Shown in pieces: positions 22,078 to 46,534 of a stretch of DNA of 64,000 nt (positions are counted from its first letter, which is position 1; every line of letters starts with the position of its first letter). The position numbers and the translations under genes are program-made. The notes beneath the pieces were generated by a model, which had not been told where the DNA came from, did no database searches, and worked only from the letters and a program-made list of their open reading frames with translations. The stretch comes from Verrucomicrobium sp. BvORR034. Lineage in GTDB: Bacteria; Verrucomicrobiota; Verrucomicrobiia; Verrucomicrobiales; Verrucomicrobiaceae. The DNA lies in the NCBI RefSeq assembly GCF_000739635.1, contig NZ_BATQ01000041.1:124001-188000 (forward strand). The letters run 5' to 3'.

Positions 22078-22081
22078 GCCG

Positions 22082-23296
22082 ATGGATGCTGAATTAAGCC
22101 AAATAGCTAATTTGGAGGTCGAAGAGAGGCACAGGGCTCTAAGGGCCCTGCTGCGTTGTCCGCTCGTCGTTGCTGACATCCCTGAACACATGGAGGATTT
22201 TGTTCGCATCAGACGGCATGGAGAGTATTTGAGAACATGGTTCTCCCGGCACGCTGGTTGGAGTTTGGACATCACCGCCGAATGTGCCAGGCTCTACAAA
22301 GTTCCAGCTCATCTGATGGACTCAACACGGGGTGCGAAGTCGTCGAGAGATGAGAGCGACTTTACGAGGAGGCGCTATGTTCTATTCTGTCTGGCTCTGA
22401 CAATTCTCGTCAGAGCAGAGATGCAGACGACGCTCGGTGAGCTGGCGCAGGGTGTCATTCGAATCCTGCAAGAGGACGATTGTTTTCGTTCTCTTGCTTT
22501 TGACTTGGAGAATGCCGATTCGCGGAGAGACCTTGTTGCGGCCGTTCGACTGCTTGTTGAGAATTTCGCCCTTAAGAGAGTTGACGGTGACGACCAGCGC
22601 TTCGTGCAAAGCCAAAAGAATGAAGTGCTCTATGACGTCAGGCACCATGTGATCTATCGCTTGCTCGCCACTAGGAAAGCGCCTAGCGCAGTCGTTGCAA
22701 CTGACTGGCTAGATCGGTTGGCCGCTCTCACTGATGAGCCGAAGTTGCAAACCGGGGAACAGCGAAATCTTCAGATTCGGCATGAGATAAATCGCCGATT
22801 GCTTGATGACCCCGTCCTCTACCTGCCAGGTGATCTGAGCGAGGATGCCTTGGAGTACTTTTCCAAACAACGACCGCATCTGATCAGAGTGCTGGAAGAA
22901 GCTACCGATATGGTCATCGAAGACCGACGCGAAGGCATTGCACTCTCTGATCGGTTCGGAGATTGCACAGATATTGGATTGCCCGAGGATGGCACTGATG
23001 GTCATGCGACCTTGCTGACCGCAGAGTACTTGGGAAGACTTCGCATTGAACAGCCTGGAGAAGTCATTCCCACGGCTGTGGTCGAGCAATTTATCGCGGA
23101 ACAAGCACAGATTTTCAGGAAATTCTGGAGGCAAGATGCTGTTGCTCCAGGCTCCGAGATGGCACTTACGGACGAAGTGTTGCAACGACTCCAAGCACTG
23201 GATCTTGTCAGGCGTGCTATTGGGGGTGTGCTTCCGATGCCTGCAATCCATCGATATCGACATGAGCTTCGGCGGCGGGACGTTTCCCCTCAATGA
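22082..23296 (+). CDS. jetB: Wadjet protein JetB (DUF2398/TIGR02678 family), MukE-like
   Basis: A 404-residue winged-helix partner that binds the kleisin JetA and controls the SMC ring. Family features: N-terminal ERHRALRALLRCPLVVADIPE, then FVRIRRHGEYLRTWFSRHAGWSL, the DESDFTRRRYVLFCLALTIL helix and the C-terminal ELRRRD. It is located between jetA and jetC with almost no spacing and its 3' end lies against or inside the jetC start region, so the products should be made together. Confidence 0.88.
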   Translation: MDAELSQIANLEVEERHRALRALLRCPLVVADIPEHMEDFVRIRRHGEYLRTWFSRHAGWSLDITAECARLYKVPAHLMDSTRGAKSSRDESDFTRRRYVLFCLALTILVRAEMQTTLGELAQGVIRILQEDDCFRSLAFDLENADSRRDLVAAVRLLVENFALKRVDGDDQRFVQSQKNEVLYDVRHHVIYRLLATRKAPSAVVATDWLDRLAALTDEPKLQTGEQRNLQIRHEINRRLLDDPVLYLPGDLSEDALEYFSKQRPHLIRVLEEATDMVIEDRREGIALSDRFGDCTDIGLPEDGTDGHATLLTAEYLGRLRIEQPGEVIPTAVVEQFIAEQAQIFRKFWRQDAVAPGSEMALTDEVLQRLQALDLVRRAIGGVLPMPAIHRYRHELRRRDVSPQ

Positions 23297-23312
23297 GCAG
23301 CCTTCCCTCCAA

Positions 23313-26300: not shown

Positions 26301-27419
26301 GGAATGTTCGCTGAAGCCGATGAGCGAATCATGGAGTTTGACACGCAGATGTGGTCTGCGTCCAAGGCGGTCTCAATTGCAAGGAGTGTCTGCAAGCTGC
26401 TTCCGGACCTGCCTCGCGATGACGGGGTTTGGACGGAAAGACTGAATGTCTTGGACAAACGAATCAATGAACTGCGCACGAGTACAGGCTCTGCATGTCC
26501 GATCGAAAGTGAGCAGCTAGTTGAAGGGCTCATCTTGGTGACTTGCATTTACCAAGGAAACCGGCTGCGCCCATCAGGGTGCCTCGCGGCAATCGAGCGT
26601 GAACGTGAAACACACGACCGCCTGTTGGCTGAAGAAGAGCGCAAGATCATCGACAGTCACCTCGTGACTGAGGTATCGCTTCAGTTGCAGCAGTTGATAG
26701 AGCAAGGCCAGGACAGAACTCGCAAAATCAATCTTGAGATGGAAAAGTGCGCCACTTCTCTTGGGGTGGCTTTGAAGCTAGTATGGGAACCAAAGACTGA
26801 GGAGATTCATCCAGCGCTACCTTCGGTGAGGCGCTTGCTTCTCATGGACCACGCCGCATGGACTGAGGCACAACGAAGCACAGTGGGGAATTTCTTGCAT
26901 CGACTGATTCAAGATGAACGCGCCAAAAACCCCGCTGCATCGTCAGCAGAACAGTTGCAAACGGCGTTGGACTATAGAAAATGGCATGTCTTCGCGGCCG
27001 AACGACAACAAAATGGCCGCTGGGAGAGATTGACCCGCAAGCGCTATGGTACTGGATCAGGTGGTGAAAAGGCTCTTATGCTAACCATCCCTCAAATGGC
27101 AGCGGCAGCTTCACACTATAGTTCTGCGGCGATTCACTCACCTAGGTTCATATTGCTCGACGAAGCCTTCGCCGGCATGGACAAACCCACTCGGGGGAGA
27201 TGTATGGGGCTTCTGGAGGCGTTTGATCTGGATCTGTTGATGACAAGCGAGAGGGAACATGGCGCTCATGCCAGCTTGTCCGGCATTGCCATTTACCAAC
27301 TGACGGCAGACTCCGAGGCTGTGGCAGCGACTCGATGGGGCTGGAATGGTATTAACAAGGTGGCGGCAACTGTGCCCGACACTCCTGAATTGCGCACCCT
27401 AGATCGTCGATCCGCATGA
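23313..27419 (+). CDS. jetC: Wadjet SMC ATPase JetC (TIGR02680 family), MukB-like
   Basis: Motor of the Wadjet complex, about 1368 residues. Walker A (RGNNGSGKSRVLALQLPFLLDG) lies near residue 41; long coiled-coil arms run from ~370 to ~640 and ~740 to ~1150 around a hinge near 580-680; the ABC signature (GTGSGGEKALMLTIP) is near 1247 and Walker B (FILLDEAFAGMD) near 1280. This head-coil-hinge-coil-head layout is complete and intact. Start: ATG 23313 gives a head like other members; ATG 23262 (overlapping jetB by 35 bp) is possible. The stop overlaps jetD by 4 bp. In known Wadjet systems JetABC extrudes DNA loops and JetD cuts small circular DNA. Confidence 0.9.
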   Translation: MTNLPSAYTLRFQPIRSGLLNLFKYQDQEFWYEKGRLLIRGNNGSGKSRVLALQLPFLLDGEISSRRVEPDGDPARQMAWHLLMDDQFEQRTGYTWIEFGRVDDQGVEHFLTLGCGMKAVRGGDNQPSRWFFLTSKRIGRDLDLQEGGTPRSAERLSEALSPEDFFAKTAKEYRMEVNRRLFGLSMGAYSALIELLIRLRAPQLSKKLDEKSLFAALSDALPPLAADVVDQVASAFKQLEDLRHEYQHLKSLSHALTQFRANYQVYLQIALLRRAEAVTSCHSRYEKAQGQVRTLQQTVEAGESRLGEAEAEVNLAHDVRTACTATLEAIQSRPEADLASKLDAAHRDAHEKGTRLNEAQVNLTNTSGRLEICSNERDRQQKLADRAVSDCRILEHEARGKVTPTGFQSDHDEILPGNRDWPKDLVSLVELRDIHKRKGDDHLYRLEQLEREKAKLDQFKVIREQAIFREQEATDKVTAARDLIHTHQQNVESNRREFDRKYDAWQRALRWLKMPPASELSERLEDWYQTDGSEHRVFSSILADSIKADVEVRSAQQAIVEARRSELDGRRDTLENEAAQLTAAPRVPQLPKVRGSAEMERLDRPGAPLWKLCEFETGLSPLQRAGLEAALEAAGILDAWIWPDGRMSSDVFPIDTFILRDDKSLDLGGQNSLADVLILDPEYSGDYVFSDDVLRQVLSGIGLGQDRGSHWISLDGEWCLGPLRGRGEKQFPEFIGTRSRNSARDRQLQEIDEQRALLAIEFEDLTRESEALRDRGAEAEAEQCSAPKDDLIARHLALRTHAYSVLNELTQALAEVHQQAELACRQYDSEKGNFKTLASHMGYAAHADQIDTLRGSWTHYESAMARLWDKAESVITNLEGLGMAESSLRLVSEDYLAAANRARRAEDESIHARETYAALQATVGISVNEFQTMLASARSNKEAAERGVQDAESQRSQIEKQLTAVRASLPGAEEKVQEAESERDKATGFLRRMFDAGMFAEADERIMEFDTQMWSASKAVSIARSVCKLLPDLPRDDGVWTERLNVLDKRINELRTSTGSACPIESEQLVEGLILVTCIYQGNRLRPSGCLAAIERERETHDRLLAEEERKIIDSHLVTEVSLQLQQLIEQGQDRTRKINLEMEKCATSLGVALKLVWEPKTEEIHPALPSVRRLLLMDHAAWTEAQRSTVGNFLHRLIQDERAKNPAASSAEQLQTALDYRKWHVFAAERQQNGRWERLTRKRYGTGSGGEKALMLTIPQMAAAASHYSSAAIHSPRFILLDEAFAGMDKPTRGRCMGLLEAFDLDLLMTSEREHGAHASLSGIAIYQLTADSEAVAATRWGWNGINKVAATVPDTPELRTLDRRSA

Positions 27420-28705
27420 GTATGGAGCAGGACAAAAGGCTCGTAACGATCTTTTCCGCATCCGGTTGGAATCGGTTTGTAGACGAATTGGTCACCCGAC
27501 GCAATCGGGGGAGTGTGCTGCAAGGGACGTTTTCCTTGGCTAATTCCACTGAAGAAGAACGTCGCAGCTACGCGCGGTTGCTCAGACTTTCCAAGCCACT
27601 TGACCGCCCTCAACTACGTTACGACCTAGAACGTATCAGAGCAGCACTTTCCAATCAGGGGATTGCTGTCGAATGGCTTCAGTTGTTGGAGGCCCTCCGG
27701 GGTGCAATTCCGCCCGAGCTCGTGTTGAATTTGGAAGCCCGTCGGGCGTGGTCGAACTTTTGGCCTTGGGCGGAATCTCATGTAGCTGCTCAGTCATTCC
27801 CGCATGCATGCGAATGGTTGAATACGCTACGGAAAGATGGTTCGCTTGTCAGACAGTCGAGAGATCAATGCCAAGTTGCCACGGATAGGCTCACTGTAGC
27901 GTGTGGGGTGCTTTCACAACTGCCGGCGGGGGATGAGCCTCTGGCCAGTGTCGCCGCTCGCCTTTGTGGCAACAGCCACGCCTTGGATACCAACTCACCC
28001 CTGGCTTCGTTGGTCCTAAAATGTCTTGCTTTGCAGCGCGGTGTGCCTGTCCCGGAAAGGTCTGAAGATCGCCGCAAGCTATGGGAGTCATTTGGCGTTG
28101 TTTGTGATGACGTCAGCGCCCCTGTTCTCACCTTCAATCTTGGCCTCATTGGTTCGTCTTGGATTACCCGCTTAATTTCAGAAGCAACTGATGCGTGCCA
28201 ACCTCTCTATCTTTCGAACCGTATGGTCGCGACGGCCGACTGGTCTTCTGTTGGCTATCCGACGCATGTGTTCGTCTGCGAGAACCCGACCATACTCTCG
28301 TTGGCCGCAAATCGTCTTCAGCATGCTTGCCCTCCCATGGTTTGCGTGAATGGAGAGCCACGCTCTACGAGCAGATCCCTACTGTCTCGGCTTCGTGCTG
28401 GCGGATCAATCCTTTGGTACCACGGTGATTTCGATTGGCCGGGTATTGCTATTGCCTCTCGATTGATGTCCGAACTGGGGGCTCGCCCATGGCTGATGTC
28501 CGCAAAGGACTACGAGTTTGCAGTCAGTCTTGGCCTGACGAGGGATCTCAGCGGGGACCCATTGGAAACCCTCTGGGATCCCGCTCTTTCACAGGCAATG
28601 CAGTCTCGCAAAAAGGCCATCGATGAAGAAGCGCTTGCAGAGGTAATGATGCAATCAATGCTCTGCGTGAACGATGGTGATCTGGCTCACTCCTCACGGC
28701 AATGA
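27416..28705 (+). CDS. jetD: Wadjet nuclease JetD (DUF2399/TIGR02679 family), Toprim
   Basis: A 429-residue topoisomerase-VI-A-like nuclease that cleaves plasmid DNA held by JetABC. The Toprim metal residues are visible: Glu in VFVCENPTILSLAA near residue 288, and the D-x-D of LWYHGDFDWPGIAIA near 337-339. The N-terminal half is the helical domain of the family (ERRSYARLLRLSKPLDRPQLRYDLERIRAAL). The ATGA overlap with jetC indicates translational coupling. All catalytic residues are present, so the system should be functional. Confidence 0.9.
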   Translation: MSMEQDKRLVTIFSASGWNRFVDELVTRRNRGSVLQGTFSLANSTEEERRSYARLLRLSKPLDRPQLRYDLERIRAALSNQGIAVEWLQLLEALRGAIPPELVLNLEARRAWSNFWPWAESHVAAQSFPHACEWLNTLRKDGSLVRQSRDQCQVATDRLTVACGVLSQLPAGDEPLASVAARLCGNSHALDTNSPLASLVLKCLALQRGVPVPERSEDRRKLWESFGVVCDDVSAPVLTFNLGLIGSSWITRLISEATDACQPLYLSNRMVATADWSSVGYPTHVFVCENPTILSLAANRLQHACPPMVCVNGEPRSTSRSLLSRLRAGGSILWYHGDFDWPGIAIASRLMSELGARPWLMSAKDYEFAVSLGLTRDLSGDPLETLWDPALSQAMQSRKKAIDEEALAEVMMQSMLCVNDGDLAHSSRQ

Positions 28706-28905: not shown

Positions 28906-30132
28906 ATGTTGCTGTTTCAGTATCGACGACCAGGGAATCTCGAATTCAGCATGCTTCGCCGCGGTGAAATTTTTTTCGCATCCCCATCCGAACTCAACGA
29001 TGCAAATGAATGCAGGCCGCGGCTTGTACTCACAGGTAGTGTAGAGTTGTGGCAACGCTTGGCTCACTTGATTCTCCTTGAAGTTTGCGTCCAGATTTTC
29101 GATCCATTTGAGCGACTAGAAACATCTCACACCATTCAAAATTGGTCGAATCCAATTGGAAAGCACTTAAGCAAGAAAACTGTACGGCGAGATTTAGGTA
29201 TAGAAGAACTGCCAAACGTATTCAGCGAAGCGCTGCAGGTCCACCTTCCGACACTGAACGAGCGAAGGCTAGAATCCTCCATCCTTGCACTCTCGATCGA
29301 ATACATTCATCATTTGCCACGGTTGATATGGGAGGACAAGTACATCGCATCGTTTTCAAAGGACGTTCGCAATCCAACAATGTGGGGACATTATGCTGAT
29401 GCCGAGAAAGGCTATGCGGTCATCTACAAGACAGAGGATGGCAAGCTTCTCGTGCACTCACCTATCAAAGTTCTCCACGGCTACAGACGCTCAGAATCTT
29501 CCCCAAATATTATGGAGGTCGGGGTGTACAAAGAGGAGTCGCTAATGCTGCATCCAGTTAGATACTCCAACAAGCTTCCTAAAGTTAACGCTTTCCACGG
29601 GTTAATCCCACATTTTCACTACTCTGAAGAGGAATATCATTATGATGTCCCCGATCAGCTGCCCGGGGATGCCCCGCTTAAACAGCTGGATGATGTGGGC
29701 CTAGTAAAGTACTCAGATTGGAGATATGAACGGGAGATTCGCGCTTTTTTTCCAGCCTACACCAAACTTGCCCCCGACATAAGGGCGCTAGCCGTTGACC
29801 GAAACCACATTGTCGGAATCATCTTCGGTCCGAAAATGAGCAAAATAGATAAGGAGCGGGCAATCATGTCCAGCTACGTACTATGGCAAACCGCTGCGGT
29901 CACGTCTGGTTCCCCATTCGGTTTTTTTCAAGCAGCAAAAGGCGTCGACAAATTTGCGTTCAAGATTGTTCCCGTGGGAATCTTACGTCAGTTTTACTAC
30001 GAACGCATGCTTCCAATTGACACCTTGGACAAATGCGATGAAGCAACTGTCGCTCTACTGGCAAATTTGGCAAGGGAGATAGAATATGGTGAACGGAGGC
30101 CTAGGACCAAGCGCTCTCCTTCAAACGGTTAA
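28906..30132 (+). CDS. DUF2971 family protein, candidate defence accessory
   Basis: A 408-residue protein of the DUF2971 family. Diagnostic parts: N-terminal FQYRRPGNLEFSMLRRGEIFFASPSELND, central IASFSKDVRNPTMWGHYADAEKGYAVIY, and C-terminal WRYEREIRAFFP with IIFGPKMS. The biochemical role of the family is not established; members often sit in phage-defence islands. Here it follows jetD by 200 bp on the same strand, separate from the tight jet operon. It has the same AT-rich composition as the Wadjet genes, suggesting arrival with them. The family call is good; a role in defence is inference. Confidence 0.75.
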   Translation: MLLFQYRRPGNLEFSMLRRGEIFFASPSELNDANECRPRLVLTGSVELWQRLAHLILLEVCVQIFDPFERLETSHTIQNWSNPIGKHLSKKTVRRDLGIEELPNVFSEALQVHLPTLNERRLESSILALSIEYIHHLPRLIWEDKYIASFSKDVRNPTMWGHYADAEKGYAVIYKTEDGKLLVHSPIKVLHGYRRSESSPNIMEVGVYKEESLMLHPVRYSNKLPKVNAFHGLIPHFHYSEEEYHYDVPDQLPGDAPLKQLDDVGLVKYSDWRYEREIRAFFPAYTKLAPDIRALAVDRNHIVGIIFGPKMSKIDKERAIMSSYVLWQTAAVTSGSPFGFFQAAKGVDKFAFKIVPVGILRQFYYERMLPIDTLDKCDEATVALLANLAREIEYGERRPRTKRSPSNG

Positions 30133-33923: not shown

Positions 33924-34166
33924 CCCTTGGGGCGATCCTTCTCGATTGTTGGAGAACATCTGTTCGCATCAGGTGGTCTTGATCCCGGCAAATCTGGTTC
34001 TTGGCGTGCGCAAATAAGGAAGGCGTGATGCGCAATTTGGGAACACCCTGAAGTCGAGTGGGCACCGTGGTTGCTTCTAAGGATGGGAAATATGGGGCTG
34101 CAACAATCTCGGACACTCTATGAAGCCGTGAGGCGTTTTGCGGATCGTGACGAGAAGACAAATTCC

Positions 34167-36407
34167 ATGGGCGGATCGTCAATGCCACCGTCAATGTCCA
34201 CCGCGGTTCTGGTCATCTTGTTCTGTGGACTTTGGACAAGTGTGAATGCGGCTTGGTCGGATACCAACGCAGATGGGCAAAATGACACCTGGACGGATCC
34301 CTCAAGTCAGGCTGTCACCACGCTTCAGGCAATGAATGCCCAGGGTGTGGATGTTGACAATGATGGGGCGACAAACACTGAGGAGGCGGCGCAAGGCTCC
34401 AACCCTTATGCAATCGACACTGATCAGGACGGCTTGACCGACGGGGATGAACTTCATGTCGTTCGATTGACGATACCTGGCGCATCCCTGACCAACTGGG
34501 ACAGCGACGGCGATTTGTACAGCGACTACGACGAGTACCATTCGTTTTTCGGTGTGAAGTATCTTGGAGGTGTACTGCCCGCCATTTCCGGTGCTTCATT
34601 CTCAGATTACGATGGTGACGGGTTCAAGAACCCGGTAGATCCTGCTCCAAAGGATCCCGATAATACCGCCGAGGTCTACTACATTCCCTCTGGAGAATGG
34701 GGATATGAAATTCCCTACAAGTGGTACGGTGCGGCACTGGGAGATGCTGACGGCGACGGCATCGTGAATTTCGATGACTTGTTTCCATTCGTTGAGGACG
34801 ATGACGACAACGATGGAATCCCGGACAGCATTGACCCGAGTCCGGGGGACTACATGAATTTGAGTGCCATCAATGGGCTTGCGTGGGACTACAATGCAAT
34901 GGGGGATATGGATGGGGACGGAATTCTGAACTGGTGGGATCCTCAGAATGATTCTCCTTTCGGTGACATCGACGGAGACGGCATTGCCAATCAGGATGAC
35001 CCTGCGCCTGAAGATCCTCTCAACTTCAGCGCGGCCAACGGCATGGAATGGGGGTTGGACTACTACGCGGACAATGACGGCGATGGGATCCGAAACTGGT
35101 GGGATCCGCTTCCGTACCAGCCAAGTGCTGATGCTGATGGCGACGGCATCTTCGATCAGTACGATCCGATGCCTGAAGACAGCCAGAACTACAGTTCAAT
35201 CAATGGCATTACCTGGTACGCGGATGTCAACGGTGACATTGATGGCGACGGTGCCCTCAATTGGGAGGATGCCTCTCCCTACGGTTTGGACTCCGACGGA
35301 GATGGACTCTATGACTATCAAGAACTGCAGTACGGATCGGATCTGTATATTGTGGATACCGATGGAGATGGGCTGACGGACTATGAAGAGGTGATGGTGT
35401 ACTATACCAGCCCGACAAATCCCTATGGCAGGAGTCAAAGTCTGGGTTGGGGTAATTTCTACAAGGACAGCGACCTTGTCGATCAAACTGACACGGACGG
35501 CGATTACATCCCGGACAAGATCGAACTGTTCTATGGACTCAACATCAACGACTCTTCAGACGGGTGGGGGGATCTGGATTCAAATGGCATACCGAACTAC
35601 TATCAGTACTGGAGTGGAACTGCCCTGGACCTTGGTTTGTCGGTCTATGATGCTGACGGCGATGGAATGACCGACGTTTTTGAATTGGCCTACGGATTGA
35701 ATCCTGACGACCCGGGCGACGCTATTCTGGATGGCGATGACGACGGAGTTCTAAACTACGAAGAGGGGAAGCTTGGACTCTCCCCTATCAAAACAAACAC
35801 ACTGGGAGGACAGTTCGAAAACTGGCGGAACTTTGACATTGGTTGGATGATCACCCGGATCTTCTATCCTGCGGATGATGCGCCCACCGAAGACTCCGAT
35901 AGCGATGGCATTCCAGATTGGGGTGAACTGGCTCTTGCCGGTCTAAACCCCACTTTCACACGCGTTGCCGAGGGAGACCTTGATGGCGACGGAATGCCGG
36001 ATTCCTGGGAACATCAGTACGGGAGATGGAAATATCCTGCCAATGGGATGGACCTGAGGAGAAATGATGCAGAACTGGATGCAGACGGTGATGGGTTGAA
36101 GAACATCCAAGAGTACCAGTTTGGCACTCATCCGCTGGCCGCCGACTCTGATGGTGATGGAATCATGGATGGAGCTGAGGATCTAGACAATGATGGGTTG
36201 ACCTCTGCGCTCGAATTGCTCTTGGGGTTTAATCCCTTGATTGCAGACAGCGATCATGATGGCAACGACGACGGGGAGTCGATTCCTCCCAACGATCCTG
36301 ACCGGGACGGTCAATTGACGGCGGAGGAGATCTCCATTGGGACCAATCCTGCCTGGAAGGATCACCCGGCTGTGGGACTAAAGGCAACCGGGAGCGTCGG
36401 CCCTTAG
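34167..36407 (+). CDS. secreted calcium-binding protein with thrombospondin type-3 repeats
   Basis: A 746-residue exported protein. ATG 34167 has GAGAAG upstream and leads into a signal peptide ending near TSVNAAW. The rest is almost entirely about 20 Asp-rich repeats of the type D-x-D-x-D-G, e.g. DTDQDGLTDGDELH, DADGDGIVNFDDLFPFVEDDDDNDGIPDSIDPSPGD (split for length) and DSDSDGIPDWGEL, the thrombospondin type-3 signature that binds Ca2+ and stiffens extracellular proteins. There is no catalytic or sorting domain. The RHS gene starts 46 bp downstream on the same strand, so the two may be a secreted or surface-assembled pair. Confidence 0.82.
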   Translation: MGGSSMPPSMSTAVLVILFCGLWTSVNAAWSDTNADGQNDTWTDPSSQAVTTLQAMNAQGVDVDNDGATNTEEAAQGSNPYAIDTDQDGLTDGDELHVVRLTIPGASLTNWDSDGDLYSDYDEYHSFFGVKYLGGVLPAISGASFSDYDGDGFKNPVDPAPKDPDNTAEVYYIPSGEWGYEIPYKWYGAALGDADGDGIVNFDDLFPFVEDDDDNDGIPDSIDPSPGDYMNLSAINGLAWDYNAMGDMDGDGILNWWDPQNDSPFGDIDGDGIANQDDPAPEDPLNFSAANGMEWGLDYYADNDGDGIRNWWDPLPYQPSADADGDGIFDQYDPMPEDSQNYSSINGITWYADVNGDIDGDGALNWEDASPYGLDSDGDGLYDYQELQYGSDLYIVDTDGDGLTDYEEVMVYYTSPTNPYGRSQSLGWGNFYKDSDLVDQTDTDGDYIPDKIELFYGLNINDSSDGWGDLDSNGIPNYYQYWSGTALDLGLSVYDADGDGMTDVFELAYGLNPDDPGDAILDGDDDGVLNYEEGKLGLSPIKTNTLGGQFENWRNFDIGWMITRIFYPADDAPTEDSDSDGIPDWGELALAGLNPTFTRVAEGDLDGDGMPDSWEHQYGRWKYPANGMDLRRNDAELDADGDGLKNIQEYQFGTHPLAADSDGDGIMDGAEDLDNDGLTSALELLLGFNPLIADSDHDGNDDGESIPPNDPDRDGQLTAEEISIGTNPAWKDHPAVGLKATGSVGP

Positions 36408-36453: not shown

Positions 36454-39400
36454 ATGGCTCTCAATCGGCTTCTTGTTTTAGGGTCTCTATTGATGTTTTT
36501 CTCGGCCAACGCGTTTGGTCAGAGCATTCGTGAGGTGCTTGTTTCAGTCCAGGAGCGGCGGCTTGCTCTGATGCAGAGGCGTGCCGTAGAAGCAGAATTG
36601 AAACGTGCGGCGGAGTTGGTTGCGGATCCACAAGGGGTGCCGATGACGCCACTCGCCCCCGTTGACGATGATGACTTGATTGACTGGGGGGATGGGCTGG
36701 AGAGATTTCCGACGCAGGCGAAAATCGAAGAGCTCCCCTTTACAAAGGTTATCGAAAAGCTCAACCGGGCATCGAGGGAGGTGGACTACCTCAAGCAGTT
36801 CTACCTGAATGTCGATGGATTCTCTACAACGCAAAAATTTGACCTAAGCCACAGCTATACTGACGACGGAGTTTACCCTCCGCCATCTGGTTTGAGTTAC
36901 CTGCCTTCGGCTGGCGATTTTGACGATTCAAACTGGAGGCAGAAGATTCTGGTTCTTGCATCTCTTGTCGAACAGTTGCGGGCCCTGGCGTGGCCCATGG
37001 AGGTGTGTCAGTTTAGGGCGGCGACGATGGACAATTCCAATGTGCCAATAGAGGACATGGATCTTGGGGTCCCGTTGCCTACTCCAAGCAATGGAGCAAA
37101 CATGGCGGACTGCGACTCCACAGTGGGGATGACCTACGTCGCGCAATTGTACAAATGGGGGGCGTTGGGGCAGCCCAGTTCCTTTTATACCGAACTCGGT
37201 GGCGTGCGAGGGATTAAGACCATGGTGCTGCCGGAAAATATTCTGGGGGACAACAAAATTGATGAAGGCAAATTGGTCTTGTATAGGAGACTCAGGGCAC
37301 CTCTGCCTTGGATCGCAAGCGAAGTTTACCCGCTCCACAAAGATTCGCTCCCGTTTCACTTTCGCAAGGAATACCATTCAGTCACAAATACTTTTGAACG
37401 TGGAGAGTTTGTTGTTGGAAATGCAGGGCTGCAAACAAGAGCTGAAGTGGAAGGCATGGAGGCGCAAGTCCGCTCACGGTGGACCTTGCCGCAGCTTGCG
37501 GCACCCGGAGAGTATTCCGGATACCAAGGCTACCTTTACGATTGGCAGCCTGAGGATACATTTCCACCCGGCATGGATTTCGTTATCGAACTGGAAACTG
37601 TGTGCTTTCCTGACTTTGCGCCCATCCAGAGGGCCACAGAGCGGCACTTGATGTCAGTCATCGCGACGAATCCTGGGAGCCTGCAGGTGAATGCGAGCAA
37701 ATATCTTGCGGAGGTCGATCTTGGCAGGGGCCTGCGTGACCGTAATCAGACGGGGGTGCTGACTTTTCGACCCGATGGCTTTGGGACAGTCGAATTTTCT
37801 GGCAGCTTGAGTGGTTTCAAGGCGATATTTGAGACCGATCATGACAAATTCTCCCAAGCAGTAGTTGAAGAACCATTTGGAGGGGAGCATGAGGCATCGC
37901 TATTTACTCCTGAAGTTTATACGGCCACAGGATTCTCGGACAAAGCTGGATATGTCTCGGCTTGGTCCGCACCCAGGCTGAGACAGATCTTCGGATCGGA
38001 CATCTCGATCGACATCGAATATGTCAATGACTACAAAAGGGTCCTGAGGTTCTTTTGGACGACAAAGATCACAGTTCCGGGCGACAACGTCGTGGTCCCG
38101 GTTGAAATCACCGGGGAGCCGTTCAAGACCATTGTGGTGGAGAATGCGGATGGAGTGGAGAACGGCGAATTTCCCGAGAGTGAACCAAGTCTCCACATTT
38201 TTGAAGTGGTGGGTGAAGATGAAGAGGGTGTGGTGGGATTGCACTGGGAGGTCAAGCGCACCGAAGACTGGAGCGGGCATCCCCTGCAGATTGTGATTAA
38301 GGGTGGTTCTGCTGAAGGGGGCCAGGACCTGTTCCAAAAGACTATCAGTGTCGAGCAGGACGACTCCATCCTCGAGACCACGCTGTACGGAGGCGCGACC
38401 ACGATCATCGCCACCACCTATACAAGCGCTCAGAACAACAGGTTTTCCTTGTCTCCTGAACCGGTGCAGATTTCGCAAGGCGGCCGCGTTGCGGCTCTTG
38501 AATATACCGCGTTTGCAACATCTTCTGACTTGTCAAACACCACTTTGACTCTTCGGCCGATGCTGACCAAACAATCCCACTCTGGGACTGGGTGGACGCT
38601 TGATGGAGCGGAAGTCGCCTGGAATCAGGATGGTACATTCAAATCCAGCAAATTTCAGCGGGCTGGTGGTGAGTACAGTCAAGCCAATACCTGGGACAAT
38701 CTGAAAGTCACAGCATCGTACAAGCTTGATGGAGTTGAGTATCGTGCCATAGAATGTGAATATTCAGAAGCACTCACCAAGGAGCAGCATCGGATTGGAG
38801 GAGCGGAGACGATCGTTTTGTTTAACGGGCCTGAGGAAATAGCTCCTTGGACGGTCAAGCAGATCAAGAGTCCTGAAGGGTACTTTGAAAACTTCACCAC
38901 CACACCCGGAGTCGATGTCTCCATACAGAGTGTTTTGGAGGGGTGGGGCGACAATCACGATGCGGGCCGACAGACCATCGTTACCACCAATAGAATGGGG
39001 GGGCTTATCACACGTTCTGTCGTGTCAACCGCCCAGAATCCTCCGCTGACGATAGAATTTCAGGCGGGAGGTGAGCATGAAGGGTTTGGTTCCCCGGGAA
39101 CCATCACAGGTCTAAGGGGTGATATTACGACAATAGAGTGGCAGACAGCAGGGCGAAATACCGGGGCCATGTTGAAGGTGAAGTCGCCCGAGGGGATTGA
39201 GCGAGGGGCTACCGGCTATGACTACCTGGGGCGTCCATCAGGCTACCAGGCGGGCTTTGCCACCTATAGCGCCAACTATGCGGATCGGTTTGCCCCGAAA
39301 TTTAGCGGGCCAGAAAGTGAAAATGTGGAGGAAGTGCAAAACCAGTTCGGCGAGTTGGTAAGTTGGAGCACGACTGCCAGGGGCGGGATGGAGGTGAATC

Positions 39401-42400
39401 TTGCTCAAGCGGGCGCCTCGATCACCTTGGACGGTCGAAGCGCATCATTGGATCTGGGATCCCGTGGCGAAGTCACAGGAGTTGGAGGTGGGATGGGTTC
39501 GAGGGGAACTCGTGAGAGTTGGAGCCTTGAGCAGATTGCAGGATATTCCAGGAAATTGCTTTGCCGTGCATCCATCGCGCGCAACCGGGCCGGTACCGAT
39601 TCCTCCAGCGTGCGGGAGTACTTCGATGAGCGAGGTCGGATGGTGCGGCGCATTTCTCCCGGCAATAGCGGGGGTGAACTGATCGAAGGTTGGAGCTACA
39701 GTGATTTGGATCGAAGCGTCACGTATTATCCTGGACCCGGCCCCTACTACCCATACTTCAAGCCGATCAAGCAGAGCTTGAGTTTCACAAGTGACAGCGT
39801 GACGATTACGACCCGAAGAGAAAGCTACGACATTCTCCGGTCAATATCCAAGATTGGAAATGGAAAAATTGTTGCGCTCACCGAAGTGAACGATGACAGC
39901 CACGGAGGGGTTGCCCAGTGGAAACCCCTTTCGCATGTCGCTACAGATGTTGTTGGTGGGGTGATCACGACAACTCCTCTGGGGTTGCCTGATGCATCAC
40001 GCACGGTCACGATTTCGACGCCCTCTCCGACAGGCACGATGAAAGTGGAGAGCGTAGGGACGGATGACGAGAGTCTGATGACCATGCAGGATGGTCGTCC
40101 CAAGACGATCTCTGGGAAAGTTGGCGGGATACCGTTTTCACAGACGCTAAACTACAACTACAATCGATTGGGCTCTGTGGCCAGCACCCTGGGAGGCCGG
40201 GCGTATGGCTTGCAGTTCAACAACAAGGGACAGTTGACCGAATCAAGCGGTCCGGGGTTTCACGCATCGTTGGTACCCGCAGGTGCTCCAGGGTACAGTT
40301 TGAAAGTTTCCGATTCGGTTCAAGATACCGAGGTGACTCATACTGTAAATTCGGTGGGGGATTTCACGAGCGTGACGGGCAACGTCCACGAGCCAGTCGC
40401 CGCCCTGACGCAAGACACTCCTGAGGGCGGTTCCGCGACAAGCTATAATACCAATCTCACGGTGACGCGTTCACCTGATGGTTCATTGCTGAAGAAGGAG
40501 TACGTCGGCGGTGGTTTGGGGGCAATCGAGTATGCTTACAATGAGGACAATTCGATCAGCAGCAGTGGCAGTGCAGTGGAGGCAGTCACCTATCAGCCAC
40601 GGACAGATGGATTGGATGCGCAATACTATGGCGCTGCAGGCACTGTTGCCACGAACTACTACAAAGTCGGATTGCGAAAAGACGTGTCAGGTCCGACTGA
40701 TGGCCGCGAGTTCAAATATCAGCATCTCAGCAAGACTGAAGAGCGTTATATGGGGGCAAGTGAACTTGCGGGAGCAACTCAAACCTGGTCTTACGACGAC
40801 GTTGGGAATCGCAACGGTCTTCTGCTGAGTGTGAGTACCACCGGTTCGAGCTTTGCCTCTGCCTGGAGCCTGGACAACTCTGGTCGACCACTTGTCGCGA
40901 CAGGAGGTCATATCACAGGATGGTACGAGTACAGTCCTACAACGGGCGAATTGGCGACATTTACCCGCGGCAAGTTTCCTGATGGAATTCAGTCTCCCGC
41001 TTCAGGTGCATCATTGACGACGACCTTGCAGCGTGATGCTCTGGGGCGTGTGACAGGCTGTGCCACTGTGAACAGCCTGGGAGAGAGCTTCAATTACACG
41101 TACGCCTACAATCAAAGAAATCTGCGGGAGTCTCGCTTGTCGGCATCGGGCGTCTCGTGGAGCGCCATACAATATGATTCTCGAGGTCGTTTGACGCACG
41201 CCACATTGGGAGGATCGGCGTTGCCCAGTATCAATTCACTCGTCTACGACTACGACAATCGCAACAACCGCAATGTAGCAGGAAGCGCAGTCACATTCGC
41301 CAACAATGGGGTCGATCAAGTCACTGGAAGGACTTTGAGTCAAAGGGGGTACGGGGTGCATGGAACGGTTGCTCCTGGTGGGGTGGTACGAGTTTTTCAT
41401 CCGCAAGCAGGAGCCGAAGGTGAATTGATCTTGGCAGATGAGGTTACGGGGGCTTACTCGGCGTACTGGACTGTTCCTTCAAACTGGGCCGCAGGTGGTG
41501 TCGGCCGCATTGAAATGCTGGTAAGAGGAACTCTTCCTGGTGCGGGTGTGGGGGGGACTGACGCCGTCGCAGACCAACAAGTCTGGGTGGTGGTTCCGGC
41601 AAGCGCTGAGACCTATGTTTACGACGGGGCAGGACGTACCACGGAAGACAGCGGTTGGGTATACGCTTGGAACGGAATGGGGTGCTTGACCCAGATGCAG
41701 CGCAAGAGCAACACCAGTGTAGATCCTTCTGTAGCGACTGAGGTTCTCAACTTCACATACGACGGCGACCGGCGCCGCACCAAGAAGGTGCGAACTCTCA
41801 CGTTCAACAACGGCCAGCCTCAGAGGATAGAAACATCCAAGATGCATTGGAGCGACTGGCTCCCTGTGTGTGAAGAGGTGTCAGTGAATGGTGGTTTGGT
41901 GAGTCGTCGATGGTTTGTCTGGGGAAAGGATGTCAGTGGCACTTGGGAGGGCGCGGGGGGGATTGGGGGCCTTGTCGCTATTGAGGAGGAAGGGGGGAGG
42001 CGCCTGCTGCCCGTTGAAGACGGTTTGGGCAATATTGTGGCGGTCATCAACGAAGCCAATGGCTATACGATCGCGAGGTTTGACTACTCGCCTTACGGTG
42101 AACTCGTTTCATCGTCGGGCGACCTGGCCGCCTGTCCGTTTCGGTACCAGAGCAAATACCACGATACGGAGACTGGATTGAGCTACTTTGGCTACCGGTA
42201 CTACAGTGCGAAGCTGGGACGTTGGATCAGCCGTGATCCATTGGGAGAAGATGGCGGATTCAATCTCTACGGATATTGTGGGAATGACCCGGTGAACTAT
42301 TTTGACCCCCTTGGCTTGGCGACTGAAGAGCAACGACATGCTGATGCGGTTGTGGCGTCAGCATTGAGGAAAGTATTTCAGAAGAGAGCTGCCCTTACGG

Positions 42401-43236
42401 ATGATGTGGAGGAAGCAGAAGCCTTGCGCGCATTTGCAAGGGAAATGGAAGTAACCTCCGATATTCTAGAAAATGCGAAAGAAGGGGACTACCTCGCTCA
42501 TTGGCTGAGGGGCAAGTACTGGGACCACTATGATGTTGATTCGCCGGAAGACTGGGAAACGGCTCAATTCTACGCCGAGCAATTCAACGACAAAGCAACC
42601 TTATCGTGGATGCAAGGTAAAAATGCCCAACCCCCTGGGTTGCCGCGGGCCGGACCGAAGTGGGTTGGTGATTCTGGATTGGCATTTCTTGAACTCCCTT
42701 TGCATGCGGCGGTACTAGCTCTGAGTCCACGATTTGGTGCAAAGGGAGAGTCCCCGCGCAAGCTAGCTTTCATAGGTGACACAGGGCTTTTCAAGAACCA
42801 ATTTTTGTCGGCGAAAGATATTTTTGCAGATCCTGGGAATCGAATTTATGTCACACCCGGTGTGTTGCGTGAAGTATTGCTTCCCAAAAACTTGTTTAGA
42901 TTGACAGAATATGGAAATAAGGCCAGGAAGTTTACAGCCAAGAGATTGTGGCTCATGGTTACCTCAAAAGCTCAAATTAGAATTACGGCTTCGGGGAAAC
43001 TTCCTCCTGGTCTCACCTATCAGGCGCTTACCAGTGCGAAGTTCGGAATAACAGATTTGAGAATGTTGCTGGCGGCCAAAAGGGGGGGCTTGGTTGTGGT
43101 AACTGGAAACAACAAGATCATCAGCCAGGTTGCCAGCCAGCCGCTTAGGAAAGCAATTGTCGGTGACGTCGAGGTGTTCGTGCTTGATCTTGACATCATG
43201 CCGGGTGACATATTGAAAGCAATCATTGGAGGATAG
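36454..43236 (+). CDS. RHS-repeat polymorphic toxin with C-terminal PIN-like nuclease domain
   Basis: A 2260-residue exported protein. Signal peptide: residues 1-22 (VLGSLLMFFSANAFGQ). About 1850 residues of YD/RHS beta-shell follow (YDYLGRPSGY, YSDLDRSVTYYPG, YDDVGNRNG, YDGAGRTTEDSGWVYAWNGMG). The RHS core motif is at ~1880-1955 (YSPYGELVSSSG, ETGLSYFGYRYYSAKLGRWI, NLYGYCGNDPVNYFDPLGL) and marks where the toxin tail begins. The ~305-residue tail ends in a PIN-like stretch from ~2100: IGDTGLF (Asp), TPGVLREVLL (Glu), FGITDLRMLLAAKRGG (Asp) and VVVTGNNKI. That arrangement fits PIN-type RNases, with Asn for the last Asp. RHS shells encapsulate and release such tails; the nuclease call is inference from motifs. 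Confidence 0.82.
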   Translation: MALNRLLVLGSLLMFFSANAFGQSIREVLVSVQERRLALMQRRAVEAELKRAAELVADPQGVPMTPLAPVDDDDLIDWGDGLERFPTQAKIEELPFTKVIEKLNRASREVDYLKQFYLNVDGFSTTQKFDLSHSYTDDGVYPPPSGLSYLPSAGDFDDSNWRQKILVLASLVEQLRALAWPMEVCQFRAATMDNSNVPIEDMDLGVPLPTPSNGANMADCDSTVGMTYVAQLYKWGALGQPSSFYTELGGVRGIKTMVLPENILGDNKIDEGKLVLYRRLRAPLPWIASEVYPLHKDSLPFHFRKEYHSVTNTFERGEFVVGNAGLQTRAEVEGMEAQVRSRWTLPQLAAPGEYSGYQGYLYDWQPEDTFPPGMDFVIELETVCFPDFAPIQRATERHLMSVIATNPGSLQVNASKYLAEVDLGRGLRDRNQTGVLTFRPDGFGTVEFSGSLSGFKAIFETDHDKFSQAVVEEPFGGEHEASLFTPEVYTATGFSDKAGYVSAWSAPRLRQIFGSDISIDIEYVNDYKRVLRFFWTTKITVPGDNVVVPVEITGEPFKTIVVENADGVENGEFPESEPSLHIFEVVGEDEEGVVGLHWEVKRTEDWSGHPLQIVIKGGSAEGGQDLFQKTISVEQDDSILETTLYGGATTIIATTYTSAQNNRFSLSPEPVQISQGGRVAALEYTAFATSSDLSNTTLTLRPMLTKQSHSGTGWTLDGAEVAWNQDGTFKSSKFQRAGGEYSQANTWDNLKVTASYKLDGVEYRAIECEYSEALTKEQHRIGGAETIVLFNGPEEIAPWTVKQIKSPEGYFENFTTTPGVDVSIQSVLEGWGDNHDAGRQTIVTTNRMGGLITRSVVSTAQNPPLTIEFQAGGEHEGFGSPGTITGLRGDITTIEWQTAGRNTGAMLKVKSPEGIERGATGYDYLGRPSGYQAGFATYSANYADRFAPKFSGPESENVEEVQNQFGELVSWSTTARGGMEVNLAQAGASITLDGRSASLDLGSRGEVTGVGGGMGSRGTRESWSLEQIAGYSRKLLCRASIARNRAGTDSSSVREYFDERGRMVRRISPGNSGGELIEGWSYSDLDRSVTYYPGPGPYYPYFKPIKQSLSFTSDSVTITTRRESYDILRSISKIGNGKIVALTEVNDDSHGGVAQWKPLSHVATDVVGGVITTTPLGLPDASRTVTISTPSPTGTMKVESVGTDDESLMTMQDGRPKTISGKVGGIPFSQTLNYNYNRLGSVASTLGGRAYGLQFNNKGQLTESSGPGFHASLVPAGAPGYSLKVSDSVQDTEVTHTVNSVGDFTSVTGNVHEPVAALTQDTPEGGSATSYNTNLTVTRSPDGSLLKKEYVGGGLGAIEYAYNEDNSISSSGSAVEAVTYQPRTDGLDAQYYGAAGTVATNYYKVGLRKDVSGPTDGREFKYQHLSKTEERYMGASELAGATQTWSYDDVGNRNGLLLSVSTTGSSFASAWSLDNSGRPLVATGGHITGWYEYSPTTGELATFTRGKFPDGIQSPASGASLTTTLQRDALGRVTGCATVNSLGESFNYTYAYNQRNLRESRLSASGVSWSAIQYDSRGRLTHATLGGSALPSINSLVYDYDNRNNRNVAGSAVTFANNGVDQVTGRTLSQRGYGVHGTVAPGGVVRVFHPQAGAEGELILADEVTGAYSAYWTVPSNWAAGGVGRIEMLVRGTLPGAGVGGTDAVADQQVWVVVPASAETYVYDGAGRTTEDSGWVYAWNGMGCLTQMQRKSNTSVDPSVATEVLNFTYDGDRRRTKKVRTLTFNNGQPQRIETSKMHWSDWLPVCEEVSVNGGLVSRRWFVWGKDVSGTWEGAGGIGGLVAIEEEGGRRLLPVEDGLGNIVAVINEANGYTIARFDYSPYGELVSSSGDLAACPFRYQSKYHDTETGLSYFGYRYYSAKLGRWISRDPLGEDGGFNLYGYCGNDPVNYFDPLGLATEEQRHADAVVASALRKVFQKRAALTDDVEEAEALRAFAREMEVTSDILENAKEGDYLAHWLRGKYWDHYDVDSPEDWETAQFYAEQFNDKATLSWMQGKNAQPPGLPRAGPKWVGDSGLAFLELPLHAAVLALSPRFGAKGESPRKLAFIGDTGLFKNQFLSAKDIFADPGNRIYVTPGVLREVLLPKNLFRLTEYGNKARKFTAKRLWLMVTSKAQIRITASGKLPPGLTYQALTSAKFGITDLRMLLAAKRGGLVVVTGNNKIISQVASQPLRKAIVGDVEVFVLDLDIMPGDILKAIIGG

Positions 43237-43239
43237 AAT

Positions 43240-43665
43240 ATGCCGGAATACGCTGTGTTGAGTGCGACGCCTCTGTGCCCAAGGTGTGGGTGCGAAATCC
43301 TCGATGCTGAGAACACTCTTCGGTTCCAATGGGGCGCTCTACCCAAAGGATATGAGATGGGAGAGAAGATAGTTTGGAGCAAAGGATTGCTGTCGCGAAG
43401 GCGATGGACCGTTGGTGACCCAAAGTTTGAAGACGTTGTTATTATCGAATCCGATGTGAATATAAGAGTTTGGAGTTGTGGTAAATGCGGGACGATGCTT
43501 GATAGGCCTTGTATTGAGGTGCGGAAGGGCAAAATTGTGCAGGTTTTGATGTTTGAGGCTGGAGCCTTTGAGGCTGGCACTGGCTATCAACAACAGACCG
43601 CTAATTGTTTTGAGATCGGGAGTTCTGGCAACTTGGTTCCGCGTCCCGAATTCGATGTAGAGTAG
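43240..43665 (+). CDS. zinc-ribbon protein, candidate immunity protein of the RHS toxin
   Basis: A 141-residue protein starting 3 bp after the RHS stop codon. It has two Cys pairs, LCPRCGCEILD near the N-terminus and WSCGKCGTMLDRPC in the middle, that could hold one zinc. There is no signal peptide, so it should stay in the cytoplasm where an immunity protein to a nuclease would act. Position directly behind the variable toxin tail is the usual place of an immunity gene. The sequence itself matches no immunity family that I recognise, so the role rests on context. Confidence 0.6.
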   Translation: MPEYAVLSATPLCPRCGCEILDAENTLRFQWGALPKGYEMGEKIVWSKGLLSRRRWTVGDPKFEDVVIIESDVNIRVWSCGKCGTMLDRPCIEVRKGKIVQVLMFEAGAFEAGTGYQQQTANCFEIGSSGNLVPRPEFDVE

Positions 43666-44119: not shown

Positions 44120-44256
44120 CCCTCAGCAGAAATAAAAACGGGAAGATGGGGCGAGACCCCTCTATGGGAAAGTGCGGAGACCGTTGTTGGGAGCCGCGTA
44201 GGCGTCATGCCGGCACCCTTGGCAGGTGAACTGCTGCGCAACTTCGTTCGGTCATA

Positions 44257-44587
44257 TTGAGTTTCACCGACCGTCTCAAGATCTTCCTAGCCAGACATAC
44301 GCAGAGGTTTTGGCTATCCCTCAGGGGGTGGTTTATGACCTGTTCAAAGAAGATGTACGCAACGGGGCGCACTATGTCTATGCCAACAAGCGGCGCACCT
44401 GGCTCAAGATCCTCTACTGCGAAGGACCGGGATGTGGTTTCTAAGCAAGCGGCTGGATGCAGACTTTTCCACGCCCATGGCTGCTGAGGCGGGGCAACCC
44501 AAGATGTCTCTCATCCCCGAGGTGTTCGCCTTGCTCACTGGCGGTACGGACCCGCATCGCAGTTCGATGCGTACCTGGACTACGTAA
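44257..44587 (+). pseudogene. IS66-family orf2 (TnpB), frameshifted remnant
   Basis: Three frames together rebuild an IS66 Orf2: LSFTDRLKIFLA at 44257, YAEVLAIPQGVVYDLFKEDVRNGAHYVYANKRRTWLKILYCEGPG in the next frame, and WFLSKRLDADFSTPMAAEAGQPKMSLIPEVFALLTGG in a third, with a stop at 44585. At least two frameshifts and an altered centre make it inactive. It is separated from and opposite to the tnpC remnant downstream, so it stems from a different copy. Confidence 0.7.
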
Positions 44588-44685
44588 AGCGGATCAGGTT
44601 GTTTAGTGCGGACTGTGTCGATCGCGCTGAATGCGGGTCACTACTAGGGCGTGTTTAAAAAGGTGAAGGTTTCAGAGTTTCCCTC

Positions 44686-44750
44686 GTAAGCGTCACCAAC
44701 GGTGACGCTTACGGTGCGAACCTAGGAGATCTATTGCTGTAAGCGTCACC
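44686..44750. repeat. IS66 terminal inverted repeats, three ends in 65 bp
   Basis: GTAAGCGTCACC, the typical IS66-family end, occurs at 44686-44697 and at 44739-44750. Its reverse complement GGTGACGCTTAC is at 44701-44712. The first two ends face each other with only 3 bp (AAC) between them, a perfect 27-bp hairpin; the third begins the copy carrying the tnpC remnant, whose stop is 32 bp inside. Confidence 0.7.
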
Positions 44751-44781
44751 CGGAGTTCCGTCCCATGTTGATTGACGGACA

Positions 44782-45350
44782 TCAGGCGGCCTGAGGCAGG
44801 ACCCTCCAAGGAAGCCTGTCGGCCACAGCCGCAGGCGCCACATCCTTGATCTGGCGATTGTCATGGTTGGCATCCGGATCAGCAGGTCGCGAAGGTACTC
44901 AAACGGATTGAGCCCCCACCGGCGGCAATTCTCGATGATCGTCAGGCTCACCGCCGTGTGATGCCCGGCCTCGGCCTCACCAATGAACAGCCAGTTCTTG
45001 CGCCCCAACGCCGCAGGCCGCATCGCGTTCTCGATGCGGTTGTTGTCGATCTGCAGCCGGCCGTCCTCCACATGCACCACCAGGCGCCCCCACTGGTTGA
45101 GCGCATAAGTCAATGCCTGTCCCATCGCGCTCTTGGGTGTGAAGCGTTCCTTGCGACTCATGGATTCAATCATCCTGTGAACGCGCTGCAAGATCGGCAC
45201 AGCCTCCTGCTGGAGCACCACCTCACACATTCGCGGTCCGGCCCGCTGTTCGCGCAGTCTGGCTTCCACGGCGTACAGATGACGGATCTGCAGCAGGATC
45301 AGTCCCGCATATTGCGGCGCGTCTCGCGCAGCCCTGAAAGCACTAGCTAC
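44782..45350 (-). pseudogene. IS66-family transposase (TnpC), 3' remnant
   Basis: C-terminal part of an IS66 DDE transposase: RMIESMSRKERFTPKSAMGQALTYALNQWGRL, HVEDGRLQIDNNRIENAMRPAALGRKNW and IENCRRWGLNPFEYLRDLL, including the conserved catalytic-region Glu and IDNN-x2-E motif. The N-terminal two thirds are missing before about 45350. Near 44850 one base is lost, so the true end (NRQIKDVAPAAVADRLPWRV, stop at 44782) is out of frame with the body. It is not functional. Confidence 0.78.
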
Positions 45351-45427
45351 TGCTGGTGGTGGGGAGCAGACTTTTTGGGAACTCAAACATGAACTGTGGC
45401 GCAGGCGCGGCTGGTCCGCCGTCTGTT

Positions 45428-45547
45428 GGATCATCTCGTCCTACCCAGGCTCGGCACAAGTCCTCTTCCACCGCATAGAGCTCATGGATCTGCACCAGCA
45501 CCGGGGCGGCGTCCCAGCGGCAGGTGCTGCCTCAACGAACTTGTGCG
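45428..45547 (-). pseudogene. second IS66 TnpC fragment
   Basis: On the minus strand HKFVEAAPAA in one frame and WDAAPVLVQIHELYAVEEDLCRAWVGRDD in another match the region just before the body of the remnant downstream (compare FRAARDAPQYAGLILLQIRHLYAVEARLRE there). This is a separate, diverged IS66 copy. The flanks 45548-45898 show no further gene. Confidence 0.55.
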
Positions 45548-45898: not shown

Positions 45899-45943
45899 CT
45901 CATAACCTGAAGGTCACAGGTTCAAATCCTGTCCCCGCAACCA
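45899..45943 (+). other. 3' fragment of initiator tRNA-fMet(CAT)
   Basis: Starting at the anticodon loop (CTCATAA), the sequence continues with CCTGAAGGTC, a perfect T-arm (ACAGG, loop TTCAAAT, CCTGT) and acceptor end CCCCGCA-ACCA, the pattern of bacterial initiator tRNA. The bases before the loop do not pair with CCTGA and no D-arm or 5' acceptor exists, so it is a 3' end only. It is joined directly to a hairpin terminator and a GIY-YIG gene. Confidence 0.75.
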
Positions 45944-45952
45944 ATTTCAAGG

Positions 45953-45984
45953 AGGCCTTACAGTGAAAGCTGTAAGGCCTTTTT
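45953..45984 (+). terminator. intrinsic terminator after the tRNA-fMet end (first copy)
   Basis: Stem AGGCCTTACAG (45953-45963) with CTGTAAGGCCT (45970-45980), 6-nt loop, then TTTT. The same hairpin recurs at 46320-46351 in the second copy. It looks like the native terminator of the tRNA gene carried along with the 3' end. Confidence 0.8.
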
Positions 45985-45990
45985 GTTGGA

Positions 45991-46266
45991 ATGGAATATC
46001 GCGTGTACATCGTCCGCAACAGCGAAGGCCGGTTGTATATCGGATTGAGCGAAGACGTCATCGTGCGTCTGGCTGATCACAATAGTGGCGTGTCCAAATG
46101 GACCAAGCATCGCGGACCGTGGGAGTTGATCTGGCAAAGCGCGCCGCAAGACATCACGTCCGCACGGAAGTTCGAGAATCTGCTGAAACGGCAGAAGGGT
46201 GGCGGCGGACTGTATCGGTTGACCGGGCTGCCACAACCGGGGCAAGGCGACTCGTCAGGCACATAA
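45991..46266 (+). CDS. GIY-YIG nuclease family protein
   Basis: A 91-residue single-domain protein. VYIVRNSEGRLYIGLSEDVIVRLADHNSG holds the GIY-YIG pair (as VYI ... LYIG) with the following Arg of the catalytic site in DVIVRLADHN; KHRGPWELIWQ, SARKFENLLKRQKG carries the metal-binding Glu. It starts 6 bp after a terminator hairpin joined to a tRNA-fMet 3' end, so it needs its own promoter or read-through. Small GIY-YIG proteins include UvrC-like and homing enzymes; the tRNA-end linkage fits a mobile homing role. Confidence 0.78.
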   Translation: MEYRVYIVRNSEGRLYIGLSEDVIVRLADHNSGVSKWTKHRGPWELIWQSAPQDITSARKFENLLKRQKGGGGLYRLTGLPQPGQGDSSGT

Positions 46267-46357
46267 TCCCGCATGCGGGATCACAGGTTCAAATCCTGTC
46301 CCCGCAACCAATTTCAAGGAGGCCTTACAGTGAAAGCTGTAAGGCCTTTTTGTTGGA

Positions 46358-46534
46358 GTGGAATATCGCGTGTACATCGTCCGCAACAGCGAAGGCCGGT
46401 TGTATATCGGATTGAGCGAAGACGTCATCGTGCGTCTGGCTGATCACAATAGTGGCGTGTCCAAATGGACGAGCTGGGCAAGGGGGCGGGCTTTCTTTAT
46501 CGCTACAGTCAGCGGACCGAATGCGATGGCCTGA
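46358..46534 (+). pseudogene. truncated second copy of the GIY-YIG gene
   Basis: The start (GTG instead of ATG) and first 37 codons repeat the gene at 45991; after 46470 the sequence changes to an unrelated tail (SWARGRAFFIATVSGPNAMA) and stops at 46534. The C-terminal half with the catalytic Glu is missing. Confidence 0.65.

Follow-up and report, generated by a model that had tools for sequence, protein, structure and literature searches.

The window analysed here is a 64,000-nt stretch of Verrucomicrobium sp. BvORR034 (contig NZ_BATQ01000041.1, positions 124,001-188,000; GCF_000739635.1), and our subject is a gene in it that encodes an RHS protein, together with the small partner gene that directly follows. 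An earlier reading of the same DNA, made from sequence only, had placed the end of the RHS core at residue ~1955 and described both a tail with PIN-like motifs and a next gene, 3 bp downstream, for a protein with two CxxC motifs. The core end and the next gene were confirmed: the match of model TIGR03696 to the RHS protein (8.7e-27, 93.5 bits vs. a cut-off of 32.5) stops at residue 1955, and the partner's ATG lies 3 bp after the RHS stop codon, preceded by a GGAGG site (43228-43232) that overlaps the end of the RHS gene. We are fairly confident that the two genes encode a polymorphic RHS toxin whose tail has a PIN fold of the VapC type and the zinc-ribbon protein that confers immunity to it (Table 1).

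Table 1. Features of the RHS locus and its borders (positions are those of the window)
Feature	Position	Strand	Basis
Possible partner gene with thrombospondin type 3 (TSP3) repeats	34071..36407	+	TSP3_bac PF18884, 3.4e-9
RHS protein gene, whole, 2260 aa	36454..43236	+	Open reading frame and family searches
Putative Sec signal peptide, residues 1-23	36454..36522	+	Sequence, by eye only
RHS repeat-associated core domain, residues 1878-1955, end of conserved shell	42085..42318	+	TIGR03696
Shell-toxin linker, residues 1956-2098	42319..42747	+	Without any family match
Toxin tail, putative PIN/VapC-like nuclease	42748..43233	+	Motifs, register with RHS-PIN relatives, partner association, fold of one relative
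Codon of D2109	42778-42780	+	
Codon of E2140	42871-42873	+	
Codon of D2201	43054-43056	+	
Codon of N2219	43108-43110	+	
Candidate immunity protein, 141 aa, zinc-ribbon family	43240..43665	+	hhalign to family; BLASTP to Massilia rubra L127
IS66 transposase piece, mobile-element border, not part of the mechanism	44709..45434	-	PF03050, 6.2e-28

Besides that in the window, the genome of BvORR034 has 14 matches to the RHS shell (15 in all), two of which lie within one gene. The nearest shells are 64%, 68%, and 82% identical to that of the window near the core end, yet they carry different tails. Ten other RHS tails of the genome were read and none resembles the window tail by eye, one of the other tails has an LHH-like nuclease motif (by eye), and the window tail matches only itself within its own genome. 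Since different tails follow core ends that are 64-82% identical, the window tail is the variable toxin module of a polymorphic-toxin layout. Core-end matches were also found in 33 of 38 related genomes. One locus (L110, in genome G003) has a pair of RHS core ends ~5 kb apart, with 71% identity to that of the window and with different tails, as in tandem orphan cassettes.

The partner has CxxC pairs at residues 13-16 and 80-83 and, between these knuckles, the block F-x-W-G-x5-Y-x2-G-E-x3-W. Prompted by this block, we scanned genome contigs with a pattern taken from a zinc-ribbon family with F-K-Y-G-x6; the pattern omitted the two CxxC and itself partly fixed the central block. Results showed 20 loci, with a family member in 16 and none in the remainder (L126, L130, L131, and L132). 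When aligned to the family by hhalign, the partner gave 95.7% and a score of 54.1, vs. 23.8 for the best of 60 shuffles, and the alignment spanned both CxxC and the central block. A hidden Markov model profile that contained the Massilia member but not the window protein matched the partner with E 9.5e-8. The closest member found was that of Massilia rubra (L127), with 25% identity over 155 columns and a BLASTP value of 3e-14 in a single comparison; it is an orphan that lies among transposases and small genes, an immunity-island-like setting by eye. Judged by this homology, the partner is a member of an uncatalogued zinc-ribbon family, defined here as the QFKYG family, which is absent from Pfam and NCBIfam. 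A chance open reading frame was considered for the partner and rejected on the same homology.

Models from Pfam and NCBIfam gave only sub-cut-off zinc-ribbon hits on the partner and its family, e.g., 18.7 of 54 bits for the S27ae model. The QFKYG family has paired CxxC knuckles in common with such zinc-ribbon families, including the YgiT-type finger, but differs from them in the conserved F-x-[WY]-G-x5/6-Y-x2-G-[DE]-x3-W between the knuckles and in having members that lack the cysteines, at L144 (2056-2412) and L134 (3226-3681). Because of these two members, zinc may be structural and dispensable in the family. The first CxxC part of the partner has a sub-cut-off likeness to the YgiT-type finger (TIGR03831, 15.5 of 20.2 bits). 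YgiT/MqsA is an antitoxin, and the partner's first knuckle may be common to it and an antitoxin. In searches for homologues of the partner, only the partner itself was found in 57 relatives and in plasmids, 387 genomes of the phylum gave, besides itself, 16 weak matches (7 were read, with no relative among them), and two partner-motif scans of viral DNA gave 10 loci, of which 6 were inspected by eye without finding a family member. The family profile found only Massilia rubra itself in 373 genomes of the Massilia family and one further member in 336 other genomes of the phylum. This member (L147, 1477-1812, in genome G227 of the same order) is divergent and has no PIN tail within its 3.3-kb locus.

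At 9 of the 16 zinc-ribbon loci, the gene immediately upstream has an RHS-type tail with the order D/E/D/TxD at its end or retains pieces of one. These loci belong to Actinoplanes (L128, L137, and L143), Chitinophaga (L133, the near-identical L141, and L140, which is broken), a Chitinophagaceae metagenome-assembled genome (L144), a planctomycete metagenome-assembled genome (L138, broken), and a bacterium (L139, a fragment). Their tails have the motifs V-x-x-D-x-N, S-x-x-A-x-x-E-[YF]-L, a D, and [IL]-[ST]-x-D. The RHS core scored above cut-off in seven of eight upstream genes tested, the eighth being L137, which ends at a contig end. A reverse search by tail in 384 genomes of L133's family gave a match in six genomes, and in five of these the zinc-ribbon gene lies directly downstream (two were in the profile set and three, L163, L164, and L165, were new); the sixth match (E 4.3e-4) was a stand-alone VapC-like gene. 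Since the pairing was found from the partner side and from the tail side, the RHS-type tail and the zinc-ribbon protein are linked. In L138, L139, and L140, the toxin frame is broken or fragmentary and the adjoining zinc-ribbon gene is intact (fragmentary in L139); an intact partner beside a broken RHS-PIN frame is as expected if immunity outlives the toxin.

To compare folds, we modeled the tail of Chitinophaga L133 with AlphaFold2, using a 10-row alignment of five full tails and five pieces. The model had a predicted local distance difference test score (pLDDT) of 91.3 and a predicted template modeling score of 0.81. Foldseek listed uncharacterized Pyrococcus proteins and VapC chains as its first matches, with 38 at E 0.001 or better, and the top match by VIA-align was VapC of Rickettsia felis VapBC2 (Z 14.6, root-mean-square deviation 2.1 over 119 residues), with which other VapC chains were tied. 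The Pfam PIN model (PF01850) matched all five tails scanned, though below cut-off (E 0.00098 to 0.65), and in L144 two other families ranked higher. By sequence, the relatives' tails retrieved no PIN structure: the L144 search listed mitochondrial S11, and the tail profile placed ribosomal S20 first and the PIN chain 1o4w only at E 0.92. It is the comparison of folds that reveals the PIN identity of the relatives' tail. On the evidence of pairing and fold, and far more surely than can be said for the window pair, Actinoplanes, Chitinophaga and, in broken form, a planctomycete have RHS-PIN toxins paired with zinc-ribbon proteins. When RHS tails linked to homologues of the partner were sought, as the sequence-only reading had proposed, they were found, and the tail of L133 is predicted to fold like VapC.

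The tail of the window protein has the Asp, Glu, Asp, and TxN that the sequence-only reading had noted in PIN order, at D2109 (IGDTGLF), E2140 (VLREVL), D2201 (GITDLRM), and T2217-x-N2219 (VVTGNN), with spacings of 31 (D-E), 61 (E-D), and 16 (D-T). A PIN pattern present in this tail matched 24 of 26 genomic PIN_3 proteins, 4 of 8 RHS-PIN relatives only, 3 of 20000 shuffles of the tail, and 2 of 610 real 162-aa pieces; the pattern was composed after the tail had been inspected, so that the shuffle and piece rates are not blind. On a pooled PIN profile, the tail was equaled by 1 of 1000 shuffles, which supports the PIN reading. In unforced MAFFT alignments, E2140, D2201, and T-x-N2219 fell on the E, D, and T-x-D of the relatives, and hhalign also chose the D-x15-T-x-[DN] register. 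Between E and the following D, the window tail has 7 to 13 residues more than the relatives (61 vs. 48 to 54). Given the homology of the partner and a motif spacing that fits, the window pair most likely belongs to the RHS-PIN/zinc-ribbon group as a diverged member, with a putative PIN fold in its own tail and Asn at the fourth metal position.

Searches for homologues of the window tail in 57 relatives and in plasmids and phages found none. In 288 genomes of the phylum, the tail gave, besides itself, 13 weak matches, the best of which (E 7.8e-4) has two internal stops; 8 of these loci were re-matched locally, the best-scoring locus not among them, and none was convincing by eye. Viral contigs gave three matching stretches and an 8-mer comparison with genome contigs gave 77, none of them confirmed, and the only PHROG match was at chance level (E 0.036, function unknown). 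With a PIN profile, the viral search gave 70 pattern matches, none confirmed, and plasmid searches for the relatives' tails plus partner found none. Genomic PIN_3 genes were used only to build a profile. Five places with a PIN_3 match were examined and had GNAT-PIN and other proteins, not RHS; L075 (G003) and L076 (G024) are frames of 677 and 717 aa in which a PIN_3 match with S-D-L-[RK]-H follows an N-terminal part that looks like an acetyltransferase by eye.

Upstream of the RHS gene, the TSP3-repeat gene ends 46 bp before it. Since L115 also has a TSP3-repeat frame next to an RHS frame, and L111 has the two at a distance of ~6 kb, the RHS shell and the TSP3 protein may cooperate. The immunity gene is followed by a degraded IS66 element (44226-45434), with a possible TnpB remnant near 44260 (by eye), and then a 190-nt direct repeat (45914-46103 and 46281-46470; 99% identical, 367 nt start to start), the first copy of which overlaps a GIY-YIG gene (45991-46266). 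A tRNA search of the window found none. Elsewhere in the window is a Wadjet system (20341-28705, + strand), with best PADLOC E-values of 1.2e-133 for JetA2, 5.1e-113 for JetB2, 0 for JetC2, and 2.6e-111 for JetD2, followed by a PDC-S31 candidate defense gene (28906-30132; 2.5e-20).

Several results count against a PIN fold in the window tail. It matched no Pfam, NCBIfam, or PADLOC family and no PIN model, a search of the PDB by sequence returned no PIN chain, and its fourth metal position is Asn, where PIN has Asp. In hhalign, the tail reached 0.3% against a profile of 28 genomic PIN proteins, with at least 8 of 60 shuffles scoring higher, and 0.7-0.8% against the RHS-PIN profile, with 1 of 60 shuffles higher in one run. 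Scores as good as that of the tail were obtained on the genomic PIN profile alone by 122 of 1000 shuffles and 256 of 610 real pieces (474 of the 610 scored), on the RHS-PIN profile by 17 of 1000 shuffles and 15 of 610 pieces (452 scored), and on the pooled profile by 6 of 610 pieces (487 scored). D2109 was out of register by 2 columns in one unforced alignment and by 4 in the other. The structure prediction that the sequence-only reading had called for was run on the single sequence with AlphaFold2 and gave a pLDDT of 31.5 and no usable fold. Finally, seven of the 16 zinc-ribbon loci (L127, L129, L134, L135, L136, L142, and L145) have no such tail directly upstream, and one of these has the closest homologue found of the partner, Massilia rubra L127, with no PIN tail in its 8-kb locus. 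That reading had also held its case to fail if homologues of the zinc-ribbon gene never stood next to this tail; homologues do adjoin PIN tails, but those tails have no detectable sequence similarity to that of the window. Its proposal, an RHS shell that bears a PIN tail and has a two-CxxC protein as partner, was borne out by the relatives, while for the window tail the PIN fold is inferred.

The weak profile tests of the tail alone, the failed model, and the loci without a PIN tail could also be explained if the pair were a true toxin and immunity protein but the tail were another nuclease or fold, with a family that guards against several kinds of toxin and a PIN-like order that arose by chance. 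According to the 2012 survey of polymorphic toxins, it is common for one immunity family to accompany several toxin folds (Zhang et al., 2012; PMC3482391). However, PIN tails are the sole kind of toxin recognized immediately upstream of the family (at 9 of 16 loci), no other being recognized at the other seven, where neighbors were judged by eye only and without family search, and the D-x15-T-x-[DN] register is common to the window tail and the relatives; we consider this explanation unlikely. It is less likely still that the PIN domain of the tail has decayed or lost its activity and that the pair is a remnant, or an orphan immunity gene, near mobile-element debris. The Asn in place of the fourth Asp, the IS66 piece and duplicated DNA downstream, and the broken or fragmentary toxin frames of L138, L139, and L140 would fit such decay, but the window has an intact frame of 2260 codons, an intact partner 3 bp away, and D, E, and D kept in the tail. 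The signal peptide (by eye) and the TSP3-repeat neighbor would fit a surface or adhesion protein followed by an unrelated gene, a reading that we regard as scarcely credible given that similar shells carry different tails and that the partner family is tied to RHS-PIN genes in Actinoplanes, Chitinophagaceae, and a planctomycete.

If the window pair is an RHS-PIN toxin with its immunity protein, the shell would be exported by Sec with the tail, i.e., the last ~160 residues, enclosed in it, and the tail would then be delivered to a neighboring bacterium. There, the PIN domain would cut RNA using a divalent metal held by D2109, E2140, and D2201, while in the producer and its kin the zinc-ribbon protein would bind and block the tail. 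More broadly, it seems likely that VapC-type PIN RNases have been recruited as RHS tips in several phyla, with an immunity family of their own that can lose its cysteines, and that the window pair, with the Massilia orphan, represents a far-diverged branch whose chemistry relies on three acidic residues and an Asn.

VapC-type PIN RNases are best known as the toxins of toxin-antitoxin systems; the RNAs cleaved by VapC toxins are tRNA or, at the sarcin-ricin loop, 23S rRNA. The window pair was rejected as a strict VapBC module, the tail being fused to a 1955-aa shell and the partner having no VapB-type match. What the group has in common with VapBC is the fold of a relative's tail (L133), which matches VapC chains, and the relatives' D, E, D, D layout; it differs in that a giant protein carries the toxin as its tip, the toxin gene comes first, and the partner is zinc-ribbon-like with no VapB-type match. 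With the RHS polymorphic toxins described by Zhang et al. (2012; PMC3482391), the pair shares the RHS core, the variable C-terminal tail, the small gene directly downstream, and the many shells per genome with different tails, but the tails of the relatives are predicted, and that of the window is presumed, to be PIN, and the partner family is in neither Pfam nor NCBIfam. The same survey stated that polymorphic toxins make no use of PIN domains and that there was no evidence of any metal-dependent nuclease common to polymorphic toxins and toxin-antitoxin systems. A word search of a 2023 review on antibacterial toxins with nucleic acid targets (PMC9990079) found neither PIN nor VapC. Among the matches listed in a search of the open-access literature, none dealt with an RHS protein that has a PIN tail; subscription papers and preprints lay outside its scope, and priority is not proven. 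The new immunity family can be used to find further toxins through the partner, as in this analysis. If true, the RHS-PIN pair is a testable RNase weapon, and its recurrence with a zinc-ribbon partner would show that a metal-dependent nuclease is shared between two groups of toxins that the 2012 survey had kept separate in this respect.
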